From Rhizobium sp. Leaf371 (lineage in GTDB: Bacteria; Pseudomonadota; Alphaproteobacteria; Rhizobiales; Rhizobiaceae): a stretch of 64,000 bases of DNA. Shown in pieces: positions 48,051 through 55,512 of the stretch (its first letter is position 1; each line of letters begins with the position of its first letter). The notes beneath the pieces were generated by a model, which was not told the origin of the DNA, ran no database searches, and saw only the letters and a program-made list of their open reading frames with translations. The stretch is taken from positions 310,001-374,000 of the forward strand of contig NZ_LMQB01000023.1 in NCBI RefSeq assembly GCF_001424045.1, written 5' to 3'. The position numbers and the translations under genes were made by a program.

Positions 48051-48764
48051 TTAAGCGTCCTTCGACGTGTAGAGCGCGCGAGAGCGTTCGAGGTGGCGCA
48101 GCATGGCCTGCTCCGTGGCATCGGCGTCGCGGGCGACGATACAGTCGATGATGGATCTGTGCTCGGCGAGCGTGATCGTTTCCTTACCGGTCCAGATCAG
48201 CATATGCGTGTGATAGCCCCGCAACCAGGCCAGCATGGCTTCGCTGACGGCAACATAGATCGGATTTCCGGAGATGCGGGCGATGCGGCTGTGAAACTCC
48301 ATGTCGGCAGCGATGAAGGCCGAGGCATCCTCCAGTGCCGCTTCCTGGCGGTCGAGGATGAGATTGAGATCCACGATATCGGCGTCCGTCGCCCGGGTTG
48401 CGGCCTCCCGCGCCATGCCCCGCTCGAAGAAAATGCGCGCGCTTTTCAGATGCTCCAGCGTGTCGGAGGATTTCGCCAGCATCATCTGGGCGGTCGTGTC
48501 CACCTGGCGCAGGATCGAGCGGGCCGTGAGCTCCAGCACGCGCGCCCGCTCGCCGTGGGAGATGACGACGAGGCCCATATTGGCCAGAGCCTGCATCGCT
48601 TCGCGGATGGCCGGTCGACCGACACCGAACCGCTCCATCAGCTCCCGTTCGGACGGCATTTCGTCGCCGGGATTGAGTTCGCCGGACGTGATCATCGCCT
48701 GCAGGCGGGAGAAAACCTCGTCGGACAGTTTTCGGCGCGTGATGGTCTCGGTCGGCTGGCTCAT
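48051..48764 (-). CDS. GntR-family regulator (FadR subfamily), probable apiose-cluster repressor
   Basis: 237 aa. Residues about 10-75 form the GntR winged helix (LSDEVFSRLQAMITSGELNPGDEMPSERELMERFGVGRPAIREAMQALANMGLV). The rest is an all-helical FCD effector domain with the metal-binding His pattern DMEFH, AEH and RHLERS. It is divergent from the RuBisCO-like gene, with a palindromic site between them that recurs before apnO. From this arrangement I infer that it controls the apiose genes, with an apiose-pathway intermediate as ligand. Confidence 0.87.
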   Translation of the reverse strand: MSQPTETITRRKLSDEVFSRLQAMITSGELNPGDEMPSERELMERFGVGRPAIREAMQALANMGLVVISHGERARVLELTARSILRQVDTTAQMMLAKSSDTLEHLKSARIFFERGMAREAATRATDADIVDLNLILDRQEAALEDASAFIAADMEFHSRIARISGNPIYVAVSEAMLAWLRGYHTHMLIWTGKETITLAEHRSIIDCIVARDADATEQAMLRHLERSRALYTSKDA

Positions 48765-48924: not shown

Positions 48925-48943
48925 TGTTATACTCATTATACCA
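48925..48943. promoter_or_regulatory. Putative GntR operator, site 1
   Basis: Near-palindrome TGTTATA-CTCAT-TATACCA (one arm mismatch), 54 bp before the RuBisCO-like ATG. The 16 bp ACTCATTATACCAGTT at 48931-48946 recurs exactly at 51595-51610. The TGxT-N11-ACCA layout fits FadR-type operators. A TTGCGT at 48917 places a possible -10 (TATACC) inside the site. Confidence 0.65.
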
Positions 48944-48996
48944 GTTCATCAACAGGGATCCTGCGAAGCGTGGATCGAGCCGGGGAAGACAAGCCG

Positions 48997-50250
48997 ATGA
49001 TCACCGTGACCTACCGCATCGAGACGACGGGCAGCGTCGACGCCATGGCTGCGAAGATCGCAAGCGATCAGTCGACCGGGACATTCGTGCCGGTTCCGGG
49101 TGAAACCGAGGCGCTGAAGGCCCGCGTTGCCGCGCGCGTCACCGCGATCCGGCCGCTCGAGCCCGCGAAAACGCCGAGCTGGCCGGAGGCACCGGCCGGC
49201 CACGGGACGATCCATCGGGCCGATGTCGATATTGCCTTTCCTCTCGATGCCGTGGGAACCGACCTCTCGGCGCTGATGACGATCGCGATCGGCGGCATCT
49301 TCTCGATCAAGGGCATGACGGGGCTCCGCGTCGTCGATCTCAAGCTGCCGCCGGAGTATGGCGCGGCCTATCCGGGCCCCCAGTTCGGCTTGCCGGGCAG
49401 CCGGCGTCTCACGGGCGTCGAGGGCCGCCCGATCATCGGCACGATCGTCAAGCCGGCACTCGGCCTTCGGCCGATGGAGACGGCAGAGCTGGTGGGGGAG
49501 TTGATCGGTTCGGGCGTCGATTTCATCAAGGACGACGAGAAGCTGATGAGCCCGGCCTATTCGCCGCTGAAAGAGCGCGTCGCCGCCATCATGCCGCTGA
49601 TCCTCGATCACGAGCAAAAGACCGGCAAGAAGGTCATGTATGCCTTCGGCATTTCGCACACCGACCCGGACGAGATGATGCGCAACCACGACATGGTGCT
49701 GGCGGCCGGGGGCAACTGTGCGGTCGTCAACATCAACTCGATCGGCATGGGCGGCATGGCTTTCCTGCGCAAGCGCTCCGGCCTCGTGCTGCACGCCCAC
49801 CGCAATGGCTGGGACGTGCTCACCCGGCATCCCGGCATCGGTTTCGACTTCAAGGTCTGGCAGCAGTTCTGGCGGCTGCTCGGCGTGGACCAGTTCCAGA
49901 TCAACGGGATCGGCGTCAAGTACTGGGAGCCGGACGAGAGCTTCGTGGAATCCTTCAAGGCCGTGTCCACGCCGCTGTTCTCGCCGGCGGATTGCCCGCT
50001 TCCCGTGGCCGGATCGGGGCAATGGGGCGGGCAGGCGCCCGAGACCTACCGGCGCACCGGACGCACGACCGATCTTCTCTACCTCTGCGGCGGCGGCATC
50101 GTCAGCCATCCCGGCGGCCCCGCTGCCGGCGTCCATGCCGTTCAACAGGCCTGGGAGGCGGCCGTTGCCGATATCCCATTGGAGACCTACGCGCTCGACC
50201 ATCCCGAGCTTGCCGCATCCCTGAAGACTTTTGGCGGAAAGGATGCCTGA
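48997..50250 (+). CDS. oiaT: RuBisCO-like protein, 3-oxo-isoapionate-4-phosphate transcarboxylase/hydrolase (OiaT; OiaX-type decarboxylase not excluded)
   Basis: 417 aa form IV RuBisCO-like protein. Aligned to RuBisCO numbering, K152 (K175), the carbamylation and metal residues K178-D180-E181 (K201, D203, E204), H268-R269 (H294, R295), K308 (loop 6 K334) and G365-G366 are kept. H327 becomes Q301 and S379 becomes G339, so it is not a carboxylase of RuBP. With OiaK, ApnO, ApsD and ApnL next to it, the known role is to act on 3-oxo-isoapionate 4-phosphate. OiaT yields 3-phosphoglycerate and glycolate; OiaX decarboxylates to an erythrulose phosphate. No erythrulose-phosphate isomerase genes are nearby, which favours OiaT. 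The start is ATG 48997 (GGGGAAG upstream). Confidence 0.8.
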   Translation: MITVTYRIETTGSVDAMAAKIASDQSTGTFVPVPGETEALKARVAARVTAIRPLEPAKTPSWPEAPAGHGTIHRADVDIAFPLDAVGTDLSALMTIAIGGIFSIKGMTGLRVVDLKLPPEYGAAYPGPQFGLPGSRRLTGVEGRPIIGTIVKPALGLRPMETAELVGELIGSGVDFIKDDEKLMSPAYSPLKERVAAIMPLILDHEQKTGKKVMYAFGISHTDPDEMMRNHDMVLAAGGNCAVVNINSIGMGGMAFLRKRSGLVLHAHRNGWDVLTRHPGIGFDFKVWQQFWRLLGVDQFQINGIGVKYWEPDESFVESFKAVSTPLFSPADCPLPVAGSGQWGGQAPETYRRTGRTTDLLYLCGGGIVSHPGGPAAGVHAVQQAWEAAVADIPLETYALDHPELAASLKTFGGKDA

Positions 50251-51595
50251 CGTGGTCGCACCCCTGCTTCTCAGCTACTACGGCGACGACTTCACCGGCT
50301 CGACCGACGTCATGGAGGCCTTGGCCTCCAGAGGCGTAGAGACCGTTCTCTTCCTGCGCATACCCGATGACGCGCTGTTGCAGCGCTTCGCCCATTGCCG
50401 CGCCATCGGCCTTGCCGGCACCAGCCGCAGCGAGACGCCGGGATGGATGGACGATGAACTGAAGCCGGTCTTTGAATGGCTGGAAGCCAGGGAAGCAGCC
50501 ATCTGCCACTACAAGGTCTGCTCGACCTTCGATTCTGCTCCGACGGTCGGCAATATCGGCCGGGCGATCGAGATCGGGCTCGACGTGTTTCGGCAGGACA
50601 TCGCGCCTCTCGTCGTCGGCGCGCCGCAACTGAGACGATACACCGCTTTCGGCCATTTATTTGCCGGCTACCAGAAGGATATCTTCCGCATCGACCGCCA
50701 TCCGGTCATGAGCCGGCATCCGGTAACGCCGATGAACGAGGCCGATCTGACGCTGCATCTCGGGCGCCAGACGGCGCTGCCGATCGCCTTGGCCGATCTG
50801 ACCGCGCTGACAGACGCCGGTGTGGACGCGCGGGTCGCGACGATGGCCGGCAAGGGCATATTGATGCTGGACGTGGACGGGCCGGAGACACAGAAGGCTG
50901 CGGGCGCACAGCTTCTCCGGCTGGCCCAGCGCGGGTCCCGGTTCATGGCGGGCTCGTCGGGCATCGAATACGCGCTCCTTCAGGCCTGGCAGGCCGAAGG
51001 GCTTGTCGAGGGCGTGCGGGCGTTTCCCTCACCAGGCCGAGCGGACAGGATCGCGGTCGTCTCCGGCAGCGTCTCGCCGACCACGGAACGTCAGATCCGG
51101 CAGGCGACAGGTGCCGACGGGTTCGACGGCGTGCCGCTCGACCCTCTTGAACTTCTCGGGGAGAATGGCGAGTATGTGATGGGCCGCGCGGTGGAGGCTG
51201 CCGAGGCAAGCCTTGCTGCCGGCCGCAGCGTCATCCTGCACACCGCCCTTGGACCCGAAGCCGACCGGGGTGGCGAAATCGATCGGGTGGCCGGCAGCCG
51301 GCATCGTCTCGGCCAGATGCTTGGCCGGATTCTGCTGCGGCTGATCGAGACGCAGGGGCTGGGGCGTGCCGTGATCGCGGGCGGCGACACGTCGAGCCAT
51401 GCGCTCGGTGCGCTCAAGGTCGATGCGCTGACGACGTTGCTGCCTTTGCCGGAAACACCGGGATCGCCGCTCTGTACCGCACATGGTCTCCACGCCCCGA
51501 CCAACGGCTTGCAGATCGCCTTGAAGGGCGGACAGGTCGGACGCGACGGCTATTTTGCCCAGATCCGCGATGGGCATGCGACATCAACTGGTTGA
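50243..51595 (+). CDS. oiaK: 3-oxo-isoapionate kinase OiaK (four-carbon acid sugar kinase family)
   Basis: 450 aa. The N-terminal sugar-acid-binding domain begins YYGDDFTGSTDVMEALA (residues 12-28), the family signature of DUF1537 kinases; the C-terminal nucleotide-binding domain has SGSVSPTTERQI and AVIAGGDTSSHALGAL. In apiose pathways this kinase phosphorylates 3-oxo-isoapionate at O4. The ATG at 50243 overlaps the oiaT stop by eight bases with GGCGGAAAGG as ribosome-binding site, so the two are translationally coupled. The stop is at the edge of the second operator site. Confidence 0.85.
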   Translation: MPDVVAPLLLSYYGDDFTGSTDVMEALASRGVETVLFLRIPDDALLQRFAHCRAIGLAGTSRSETPGWMDDELKPVFEWLEAREAAICHYKVCSTFDSAPTVGNIGRAIEIGLDVFRQDIAPLVVGAPQLRRYTAFGHLFAGYQKDIFRIDRHPVMSRHPVTPMNEADLTLHLGRQTALPIALADLTALTDAGVDARVATMAGKGILMLDVDGPETQKAAGAQLLRLAQRGSRFMAGSSGIEYALLQAWQAEGLVEGVRAFPSPGRADRIAVVSGSVSPTTERQIRQATGADGFDGVPLDPLELLGENGEYVMGRAVEAAEASLAAGRSVILHTALGPEADRGGEIDRVAGSRHRLGQMLGRILLRLIETQGLGRAVIAGGDTSSHALGALKVDALTTLLPLPETPGSPLCTAHGLHAPTNGLQIALKGGQVGRDGYFAQIRDGHATSTG

Positions 51596-51607
51596 CTCAT
51601 TATACCA
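51589..51607. promoter_or_regulatory. Putative GntR operator, site 2
   Basis: TGGTTGA-CTCAT-TATACCA, with extended outer arms AACTGGT / ACCAGTT. It shares an exact 16-bp core (51595-51610) with the site at 48931-48946. It overlaps the oiaK stop and lies 40 bp before apnO, which points to a second regulated promoter. Confidence 0.62.
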
Positions 51608-51646
51608 GTTATCGTTAGATGCTCCGACAAAACGGGATCAACACAC

Positions 51647-52493
51647 ATGACATCGATCGCACTTTTCGGCGCCGGCGGCAAAATGGGCACGCGGCTTGCC
51701 CGCAACCTCATCGGCTCGCGCTTCGACATCCTCGATCGCACTTTTCGGCGCCGGCGGCAAAATGGGCACGCGGCTTGCCCGCAACCTCATCGGCTCGCGC
51801 TTCGACATCCGCCCCGTGGAGGTGAGCGAGGCCGGGCAGGCGCGGCTGCAAGCCGATCTCGGGCTCACCTGCCTTCCCATGGAAGAGGCGCTCGAGGGTG
51901 CCGAGGTCGTGGTTCTCGCGGTCCCCGACACGGCCATCGGCAAGGTCGCCTCGGGGATCATCGACAAGCTCGCGCCGGGCACCATGGTCGTCGTGCTCGA
52001 TGCCGCCGCCCCCTTTGCCGGCCATCTGCCGGAACGGGCCGACATCACCTATTTCGTCACCCATCCCTGCCATCCCCCGATCTTCAACGACGAAACGGAG
52101 ATGGCGGCGAAGAAGGATCATTTCGGCGGCATCGCCGCCGAGGTGGCAAAAACCATCTGGGCGCCGGTGATGCGGTCGCATCGGGTGACGGTCGAGCAGA
52201 TGGCGATCCTCGAGCCCGGCCTGTCGGAAACCGTCTGCGCCTCGCTGCTCGTCGTCATGAGCCAGGCGCTGGACGAATGCGTGAAGCGCGGCGTGCCGGA
52301 ACAGGCGGCGCGCGACTTCCTGCTCGGCCACATGAACGTGCTCGGCGCCGTCATCTTCAAGGAAGTGGACGGCGTGTTCTCGGATGCCTGCAACAAGGCA
52401 ATCGAGTTCGGCATCCCCGCGCTGATGCGCGACGACTGGAAGAACGTCTTCGAGCCGCAGGAAATCGCCGAGAGCATTCGGCGGATCACCTGA
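51647..52493 (+). pseudogene. apnO: D-apionate oxidoisomerase ApnO, frameshifted by a 79-bp tandem duplication
   Basis: ApnO moves a hydroxymethyl group and oxidises D-apionate to 3-oxo-isoapionate; it is related to 6-phosphogluconate dehydrogenases. The protein would start MTSIALFGAGGKMGTRLARN with a Rossmann GAGGKMG and continue to 52493 (255 aa if one repeat copy is removed). A perfect 79-bp tandem duplication (51653-51731 and 51732-51810) puts the ATG at 51647 out of frame with the rest. In the correct frame the only start that keeps the whole Rossmann loop is a TTG at 51696 (265 aa, no ribosome-binding site). So it is either inactivated, poorly expressed from the TTG, or an assembly error. 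Confidence 0.8.
51653..51810 (+). repeat. Perfect 79-bp tandem duplication inside apnO
   Basis: Bases 51653-51731 are identical to 51732-51810; the match breaks on both outer sides (A/C at 51652/51731 and T/G at 51732/51811). Copy one contains codons for the N-terminal Rossmann segment. The unit length is not divisible by three. Confidence 0.95.
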
Positions 52494-52537
52494 GCGCCCG
52501 CCGGACACGCAATGACACCTTCTCAAGGATACAGCCG

Positions 52538-53572
52538 ATGCCGAATTTCAAGGGAGCGCTGATCGGTTGCGGCTTCTTCGCCGTCAACCAGATGCATGCC
52601 TGGCAGGATGTGGAGGGTGCGGAGATCGTCGCCATCTGCGACCGCGACCCGGATCGGCTGCGGATCGTCGGCGACCAGTTCGGGATCGCGCGTCGCTATA
52701 GCGATGCCGCGCAAATGATGGCCGATGGCGGTTTCGATTTCGTCGATATCGCCACCACCGTCAACAGCCATCGCGCGCTGGTGGAGATGGCCGCCGCCCA
52801 CCGCCTGCCCGTCATCTGCCAGAAGCCGTTCGCGCCGACACTCGCCGACGCCAAGGCCATGGTCGCCGCCTGCAACGCTGCGGGCGTCCCGCTGATGATC
52901 CACGAGAATTTTCGCTGGCAGACGCCGATCCAGGCCGTGCGCAAGGCACTGGACGCCGCGCAGATCGGCACGCCCTTCTGGGGTCGCTTTTCCTTCCGAT
53001 CCGGCTATGACGTGTTTTCCGGCCAGCCCTATCTGGCCGAAGGTGCGCGCTTCATCATTGAAGACCTGGGCATCCATACGCTCGATATCGCCCGTTACAT
53101 CCTGGGTGACGTGACCTCGCTCACCGCCCGCACCAAGCGCGTCAATCCTGCCATCAAGGGCGAGGACGTGGCGACGATCCTGCTCGATCACGAGACCGGC
53201 GCGACCTCGGTCGTCGATGTCAGCTACGCCACCAAGGCCGCCGTCGAGACTTTTCCCGAAACCCTGATCGAGCTGGATGGAACGGAAGGCTCGCTGCGGC
53301 TGATGCAGGGATATCGGCTGGAGATCACCCATGCGGCGGGCACCGATACGCTCGACGCCTCGCCGACCCTCCTCCCCTGGGCATCGCGCCCCTGGCACAA
53401 TATCCAGGAGAGCGTCCTTGCCATCCAGCAGCACTGGACGGAAAAAATGGCAGAGGGCGCGGAAACCTCGACTTCCGGGGCGGACAATCTGAAGACCTTC
53501 GCCCTGGTGGAAGCGGCCTATGAAAGTGCGGCGACGCTTCAGCCGGTCGCGATCGGCCCGCTGATCGCATGA
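52538..53572 (+). CDS. apsD: D-apiose dehydrogenase ApsD (Gfo/Idh/MocA family)
   Basis: 344 aa. An N-terminal Rossmann GCGFFAVNQMHAW (about 9-21), the family motif CQKPFAPTLADA (QKP in place of the usual EKP, Lys catalytic) and a C-terminal beta-sheet domain with IIEDLGIHTLDIARYILGD. In the apiose pathway it oxidises D-apiose to D-apionolactone with NAD. The ATG at 52538 follows CAAGGAT. The frame is also open backward into apnO (see that entry). The stop overlaps the apnL start (ATGA). Confidence 0.83.
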   Translation: MPNFKGALIGCGFFAVNQMHAWQDVEGAEIVAICDRDPDRLRIVGDQFGIARRYSDAAQMMADGGFDFVDIATTVNSHRALVEMAAAHRLPVICQKPFAPTLADAKAMVAACNAAGVPLMIHENFRWQTPIQAVRKALDAAQIGTPFWGRFSFRSGYDVFSGQPYLAEGARFIIEDLGIHTLDIARYILGDVTSLTARTKRVNPAIKGEDVATILLDHETGATSVVDVSYATKAAVETFPETLIELDGTEGSLRLMQGYRLEITHAAGTDTLDASPTLLPWASRPWHNIQESVLAIQQHWTEKMAEGAETSTSGADNLKTFALVEAAYESAATLQPVAIGPLIA

Positions 53573-55512
53573 CGGAGGACGCGCTCGCCTTTCGCTTGAC
53601 CGGCACGCTCCGGACCGAGCCGGACTGTCTGGTTCTGACGGCCGGCGGTCTTTCCGCCGAGCTGTCCGGCGGCGCCTTGCGGACCATCCGCTATGACGGT
53701 GTCGAGGTGCTTCGCGCCGTCTCCTTCCTCGTGCGCGATCGCGACTGGGGCACCTACGATCCCGCGATCGAGGATCTCGTGGTGGACCAGCGCGCGGACG
53801 GCTTCACCGTATCCTACCGCGCGACATGCCACGGCCCGGACGGCACGCGGCTCGATATGAAGGCCCGGATCGACGGTGAGAACGGCGGTCAATTGCGGTT
53901 TTCCAGCACGGCGACGTCCGAGACGGGGTTCGAGACCAACCGCTGCGGCTTCTGCGTGCTTCACCCGATCGTCGGCATCGCGGGGACGCCGGTTCGGGTC
54001 GAGCATATCGACGGGACCATCGAGGCGACCGTCCTGCCGGATCTCATCGAGCCCTGGCAGCCCTTCAAGGACATGCGGGCCATCACGCATCAGGCCCGGC
54101 CGGGCGTGATGGCGGAATGCCGGATGGAGGGCGATACGTTCGAGATGGAAGACCAGCGCAACTGGTCGGACGCCTCCTACAAGACCTATGTCCGGCCGCT
54201 CGCGCTCCCCTGGCCCTATCAAATCGAGCCGGGCACCGATGTCGCCCAGCAGGTCACCTTGCAGATCGTGGACACGCGGTCCCGCCAGGCCGCTTCCCGC
54301 GCGACGCCATCCGATGCACCTCTGCGACTGACGATGCAGGCCGGCCCGGTACGGAGGCTGCCGCCCATCGGGCTGATCGTCACGCCAAAGGACGCTCACG
54401 CAACGGCTCTCCTGCTGGACGCCGGCCTCGACCCGAAGGTTCAAGCTCTGCTCTTCCATTTCGATCCGCTCGCCGGCCATGATGCGGCTGCGTTTCCTGC
54501 CTTTGCGGCTCTTGCGGCCCGGCATCGGACATCGACCACGCTGGAAATCGCGCTGCCCTGCCGGGAGCCTCTCGATGCCGAACTGCGCGCGATAGCCGCA
54601 GCGATGGACGCTGCGGGCTTCACACCGGATGCCGTGATGGTCTCGCCCGCCGTCGATCGGCAGTCCACACCGCCCGGCAGCGCCTGGCCGGACTGCCCGC
54701 CGCTGGAGGACGTCTATGCCGCGGCCAGGGATGCCTTTCCGTCCGGCATGCTCGGCGGCGGCATGCTCAGCTATTTCACCGAACTCAACCGCAAACGCGT
54801 GCCTGCCGATACGCTGGACTTCATCAGCCATTGCACCAATCCGATCGTGCATGCCGCGGACGATCGCAGCGTCATGCAGACGCTGGAGGCGCTGCCCTTC
54901 ATCACCCGCTCGGTGCGCGAAATCTATGGCGACAGGCGCTATCGCATCGGCCCGTCCACCCTCCCCATGCGGCAAAACCCCTATGGGAGCCGGACGATGG
55001 ACAATCCGGACGGCATCCGGATTCCGATGGCAAACCGCGATCCGCGCCAGAACGGCCTGTTTGCCGCTGCCTATGCCATCGGTTACGCCATTTCCGTCGC
55101 ACCCGCCGGGCTCGACCAGCTGACGCTTTCGGCGCTGACGGGCCCGTTCGGCCTGATCGCCGGCGCTGACGAGCCCGTCGCAAAGGGCGGACGGCGACCC
55201 TTGTTTCATGCTGTCGCCCTGCTTGCGGATCTCGCCGGCGCGAGGGCGAGCGTTCTTGCCTCGGATCGACCGGATCAGGTTCTTGCAATGCGCGTGGAGC
55301 GCAAGGCCGGCCACACGATCGTCCTCGTCAACCTGACGCCCATCCCGCAGGCGCTCGATCTCTCCGGGCTCGACATCCCGGCCGACGCCGCTGTCTACAG
55401 GCTCGATGCGGAAACGATGGTCGTTGCTGCGGCCGGCGCGTTGCAGGCCGAGCGTCTCGGTGAAGGAAACATCCTGCTCGGCGCTTACGGGGTCCTGCGG
55501 ATCGATGCCTGA
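53569..55512 (+). CDS. apnL: D-apionolactonase ApnL
   Basis: 647 aa, no signal peptide. Most databases would once have called it hypothetical. It opens with a beta-rich domain (LSAELSGGALRTIRYDGVEVLRAVSFLVRDRDWGTYDPAIEDLVVDQ), has a middle domain rich in Ala and Asp (about 265-470) and a C-terminal domain after about 490. This layout and the gene neighbours fit the three-domain ApnL family, which hydrolyses D-apionolactone to D-apionate. The assignment rests on recalled sequence character and context, not on a search. It starts by a four-base overlap with apsD and ends the cluster. Confidence 0.78.
   Translation: MTEDALAFRLTGTLRTEPDCLVLTAGGLSAELSGGALRTIRYDGVEVLRAVSFLVRDRDWGTYDPAIEDLVVDQRADGFTVSYRATCHGPDGTRLDMKARIDGENGGQLRFSSTATSETGFETNRCGFCVLHPIVGIAGTPVRVEHIDGTIEATVLPDLIEPWQPFKDMRAITHQARPGVMAECRMEGDTFEMEDQRNWSDASYKTYVRPLALPWPYQIEPGTDVAQQVTLQIVDTRSRQAASRATPSDAPLRLTMQAGPVRRLPPIGLIVTPKDAHATALLLDAGLDPKVQALLFHFDPLAGHDAAAFPAFAALAARHRTSTTLEIALPCREPLDAELRAIAAAMDAAGFTPDAVMVSPAVDRQSTPPGSAWPDCPPLEDVYAAARDAFPSGMLGGGMLSYFTELNRKRVPADTLDFISHCTNPIVHAADDRSVMQTLEALPFITRSVREIYGDRRYRIGPSTLPMRQNPYGSRTMDNPDGIRIPMANRDPRQNGLFAAAYAIGYAISVAPAGLDQLTLSALTGPFGLIAGADEPVAKGGRRPLFHAVALLADLAGARASVLASDRPDQVLAMRVERKAGHTIVLVNLTPIPQALDLSGLDIPADAAVYRLDAETMVVAAAGALQAERLGEGNILLGAYGVLRIDA

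Follow-up and report, generated by a model that had tools for sequence, protein, structure and literature searches.

Tandem duplications the size of the 79-bp repeat treated here occur in bacteria, and where a perfect repeat of this length shifts a reading frame, recombination or slippage could in principle restore the single copy. Caution is nevertheless needed when such a repeat is met in a draft genome, as it can resemble a genetic switch. PMC9516828 counts gaps that separate the members of a duplicated pair within a scaffold among the marks of false duplications, and Kelley and Salzberg (2010, PMC2864568) describe duplications within a contig as rarely mis-assembled. Among the literature titles listed, none named such an artefact in bacteria. 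The gene that carries the repeat is one we take to be apnO, after the D-apionate oxidoisomerase ApnO of published D-apiose pathways; the name is a prediction that fits the gene neighbourhood.

The window, i.e. the whole stretch of 64,000 nucleotides that was analysed, lies on contig C23 of a genome of 5,085,900 bases in 29 contigs. Its apnO frame gave Pfam matches to PGDH_C and to a NAD-binding domain, and in the NCBIfam search of the window no ApnO model was matched. A related locus, L012, encodes a protein 98% identical to the window frame outside a segment missing from the latter. This relative matched PDB 5T57, the closest solved relative, over the whole 272 residues of L012; 5T57 was deposited as 'Semialdehyde dehydrogenase NAD-binding protein'. 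Among plasmid records 178 were matched, with identities of 80–90% (150 records) or 60–80% (28 records), none of them covering 80% of the query. The coordinates of the features are collected in the table below.

Features of the apnO locus in window coordinates, with the evidence on which each assignment rests.
Feature	Position	Strand	Evidence or remark
RuBisCO-like OiaX	49000..50250	+	NCBIfam, 779 bits against a cut-off of 700; start is where the model match begins
OiaK-type kinase	50231..51595	+	NCBIfam OiaK, below cut-off (442 vs 700 bits)
Stretch common to window and C28 locus	51592..52498	+	alignment
Tract identical to C28 apnO, 138 bp (repeat counted once)	51613..51829	+	holds the 79-bp repeat
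Out-of-frame ORF, 641 aa, from the expected apnO ATG into the next gene	51647..53572	+	ORF list
79-bp perfect tandem repeat, copy 1	51653..51731	+	sequence, repeat search
79-bp perfect tandem repeat, copy 2	51732..51810	+	sequence, repeat search
Assembled apnO frame (265 aa), starting at a TTG in copy 1	51696..52493	+	ORF list; Pfam PGDH_C and NAD-binding
Second tract identical to C28 apnO, 107 bp in window coordinates (60 bp uncounted)	52041..52147	+	holds the deletion site
60 bp absent (20 residues, KQHIVSALMQGPEEHYALGE or similar)	52139/52140	+	comparison with both C28 pieces and relatives
Third tract identical to C28 apnO, 167 bp	52233..52399	+	scarred on C28, unscarred in the window
Gfo/Idh/MocA-family oxidoreductase	52538..53572	+	ORF list, Pfam
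D-apionate lactonase ApnL	53569..55512	+	NCBIfam, 956 bits against a cut-off of 750

At the start of the window apnO the two copies of the 79-bp unit follow each other with no spacer and no mismatch; the first ends in ...CGACATCC and the second begins with TCGATCGC... at the junction. The repeat is far beyond chance, and its TRF score of 316 was the highest of six tandem-repeat rows in the window, the runner-up scoring 63. Neither the junction nor any other position of the window contains an N, so that the mark of a gap is absent. A length of 79 bp is not divisible by 3, so the second copy places the ATG at 51647 outside the apnO frame, and this ATG opens the 641-aa frame instead. The adjacent identical copies and the displaced start had both been reported in a sequence-only reading of this DNA, and both were found in the sequence file as described. 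The same reading held that one copy alone would restore a protein of 255 aa, which is correct as arithmetic. It overlooked that 60 bp are absent further downstream, and the product with one copy would therefore still be 20 residues short.

The missing 60 bp were recognised by comparison with related loci, taken as the best 80 of 544 confirmed matches to a query of 252 residues. All 80 match over 816 bases as against 756 in the window, a difference of 60. When the window was aligned with seven of these loci it alone was without one 20-residue segment, which is present in six congeners as well as in PDB 5T57. The Pfam PGDH_C match of the window frame begins only at profile position 37. In the same 80 loci (best 80 of 544; all other species) the 79-bp start region occurs as a single copy throughout. 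The loss of 60 bp is probably a second scar of assembly, as judged from the comparisons described next.

Matches to apnO in the genome were found at two places only, in the window on C23 and on contig C28, where the second gene lies at about C28:359509-360923. Its aligned blocks are 97–100% identical to the window gene, and its overlapping pieces together span query residues 9–265, with no internal stop in any of them. The genes downstream read as a sugar ABC transporter, as judged by eye from their translations. This copy carries three scars. The first is a 90-bp exact repeat with an insert of 38 bp that occurs letter for letter on C24, within a 40-bp pattern at C24:208424-208463. The second is a 260-bp repeat at 98% identity with a single N between its copies, and the third a 101-bp exact repeat with a spacer of 52 bases, made up of 51 letters and an N; the 51 letters match C1:907-958 on the other strand. 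Taken together, the three duplicated stretches, the pair of single Ns and the two insertions that match other contigs make the C28 apnO look mis-assembled. The sequence-only reading had predicted that the repeat would stop a pathway, intact in its other parts, at the apionate step. This prediction is not supported, as a second apnO is present on C28, at the site of the single apnO of five close congeners, and its pieces are open in frame; a block would be unsupported even if the repeat were real.

The two pieces of the 260-bp repeat, A (L011:8000-8259) and B (following the N), were compared with the window position by position. Ahead of this second repeat, 9 sites distinguish the C28 sequence from the window. 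Piece A has no substitution relative to the window, including the 5 sites at which piece B differs from it, and carries the 60 bp that the window is missing. Pieces A and B disagree with each other at 6 sites, of which one lies within the 60 bp; there piece A has the base found in all six congeners. The first base of piece B (window 52040) is of the window type, so that piece B is not purely of the C28 type. With its congener-type base at the one A/B site inside the 60 bp, where the window has none, piece A could also be a third allele. A third apnO gene could likewise account for piece A, but the search of the genome gave matches at C23 and C28 only. The comparison of alleles suggests that the sequencing data probably held a full-length apnO of the window type, with the 60 bp. 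Because piece A is of the window type and yet includes this segment, the preferred reading of the window deletion is a loss during assembly.

Near-identical sequence elsewhere in the genome, which would give cause for a contig break, is present on C28, where three tracts of the apnO (138, 107 and 167 bp) agree with the window letter for letter. The remaining 17 tracts identical between window and C28 measure from 0 to 65 bp. Two scars in the window and three on C28 give ten piece ends in total; seven of these lie plainly inside tracts of more than 100 bp. Two others just miss a long tract, one by 1 bp on its left side (52040) and one by 2 bp on its right (52401). The right end of the 60-bp loss lies inside a long tract in window coordinates, and in a short one once the A/B difference within the 60 bp is counted. 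As 412 of the 801 bp of the gene, roughly half, belong to the three tracts, the position of the scars is modest to weak evidence. Such a placement would be expected from short reads of about 100 bases, and the 79-bp exact repeat may be of about read or k-mer length.

How often such repeats occur was estimated with one rule, namely identical copies of 50 bp or longer at an offset of 20–600 and no more than 200 bp apart. In 1.55 Mb of this assembly, a non-random sample (chosen around the two apnO contigs together with C24, C29 and the first parts of C1 and C2), 10 repeats were detected, four of them with N between the copies. One is the window repeat, three belong to the C28 apnO and six lie at other places; eight measure 70–99 bp, and the remaining two 101 bp and 137 bp. 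By the same rule there were none in 1,511,587 bases of other genomes. This control combined the 80 related loci with the apnO loci of six congeners and with stretches of 200 kb from both G006 and G002; it is likewise non-random, probably includes about 38 kb twice (L012-L014 and L124-L126, on contigs of equal length) and contains 2,500 Ns in G006. Within these non-random samples the same type of scar was thus found elsewhere in the assembly, in part with N, and was rare in other genomes.

The six further repeats, all of 70–99 bp and two of them with N, are L153 (C28:157378), L178 (C23:183654), L197 (C24:172352), L149 (C28:75995), L187 (C29:866) and L207 (C1:1225). Genes at these places should be read cautiously. 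The repeat at C24:172352 sits in sequence with copies of 97–98% identity on C27 and C12. At the G003 counterpart of C23:183654 no repeat is present, because the two halves overlap by 70 bases. Besides the window repeat, three repeats of the assembly free of N, with units of 66, 67 and 91 bp, show microhomology of 3–4 bp and could be real duplications. An odd cluster of ambiguous calls, seven single Ns in 145 bases, was observed at L206 (C29:177150-177294). Some of the single Ns may be doubtful base calls rather than gaps.

We concluded that the 79-bp tandem repeat is very probably an error of genome assembly. We infer that short reads were used and that a joining step was faulty. The genome contains two near-identical apnO genes, and three of their shared tracts are about as long as, or longer than, a short read. 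At these tracts the assembler would break both genes into contigs with overlapping ends; where such ends were joined and the overlap went unrecognised a repeat would result, and where bases were dropped at the join, a deletion. The outcome would be the 79-bp repeat and the 60-bp loss in the window copy, and on C28 the three repeats, the two single Ns and the two pieces matching other contigs. In the living cell apnO is most likely intact at both places. Near-identical paralogues, similar scars and single Ns together make an error likely even without reads. Our confidence is not higher because the junction has no N, some repeats show microhomology, duplications within contigs are described as rarely mis-assembled and some single Ns may be doubtful base calls. 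Of the three possibilities left side by side in the sequence-only reading, a switchable locus, a recent break and a sequencing or assembly error, it is the third that we favour; for switching no evidence was found, with the repeat in none of the 80 related loci (best 80 of 544).

The window apnO itself is probably not an artefact in our judgement. In each of five close congeners (G001-G005) a single apnO was found, at a transporter locus as on C28, and the interval from oiaK to the Gfo/Idh/MocA gene is free of apnO in all five. In G006 oiaK, apnO, transporter, Gfo gene and ApnL follow in succession. As the five congeners are without a gene at this place, the window apnO is an extra copy in the lineage. 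Their lack of it led us to consider that the window gene might be wholly artefactual; this was rejected, since 19 codons differ from the C28 gene, and the copy was judged real. Of these 19 codons, the stop codon counted, 15 are synonymous, and selection therefore seems to have acted on the window copy until recently. No sign of the relaxed selection of a pseudogene was seen, a comparison that is silent on a very recent break. The mostly synonymous differences are ill-suited to an old broken gene.

That the window copy is real and was recently broken by both the duplication and the deletion, while the C28 copy remains functional, is the best of the other explanations and still an unlikely one. 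It fits the clean junction free of N, and the loss of an extra copy, absent at this place from five close congeners, would cost little. It nevertheless needs two independent lesions in a gene whose substitutions are mostly synonymous, leaves the scarring of C28 in the same region unexplained, and is at odds with the finding that the missing 60 bp sit in a C28 scaffold piece otherwise identical to the window copy.

A 16-bp motif, TGACTCATTATACCAG, was observed directly after oiaK in the window (51593-51608) and in five congeners (L229-L233), and also upstream of apnO on C28 (L011:7503-7518) and in congeners. The left edge of the extra apnO stretch (51592-52498) lies at this shared motif. A copy of its 15-bp core with one mismatch precedes oiaX (48930-48944). 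Two matches in the window were reached by 6 of 100 shuffles, so the copy before oiaX is weak evidence by itself. The motif may be a candidate operator of the adjacent NanR-like GntR regulator (48051-48764, minus strand). Should both the duplication and the 60-bp loss be real, an extra lineage-specific apnO behind TGACTCATTATACCAG would have been freshly broken by a reversible duplication, with the transporter-linked copy sustaining the pathway; we consider this course of events very improbable.

A real and reversible repeat, by which slippage or recombination switches apnO on and off in the population, is hardly credible: the repeat is perfect, but it is found in none of the related loci (0 of 80, best 80 of 544; other species), the genome has a second apnO, and reversion would leave the 60-bp deletion in place, so that no state gives an intact gene. 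Slippage at GACATC, present at both ends of the one-copy unit, was considered as its origin, but would by eye yield a unit of 76 bp and not 79. Equally little is to be expected of expression from the TTG at 51696 in copy 1, with an altered N-terminus of 12 residues and a complete glycine-rich motif, for although the frame up to 52493 is open and spans the whole second copy, the 20 bases upstream (CGGCAAAATGGGCACGCGGC) show by eye no clear ribosome-binding site, the product would be without 20 residues found in relatives, and a real repeat is presupposed.

Reading the repeat as an error of assembly averts the wrong prediction that the bacterium does not use apionate. Among described cases, the duplicated overlapping contigs treated in PMC2864568 are similar in two respects: overlapping ends stay unmerged, with one genomic sequence standing twice nearby, and the duplication is provoked by sequences that are nearly but incompletely identical. 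The cases described there lie between the haplotypes of diploids and between separate contigs, whereas in the window the cause would be a pair of bacterial paralogues, the repeat measures 79 bp and the junction has no gap mark. With respect to ApnO, the window copy as assembled differs in that its ATG is out of frame and in that it is without 20 residues present in L012 and 5T57; it shares the protein family, and its cluster holds OiaX, an OiaK-like kinase and ApnL.
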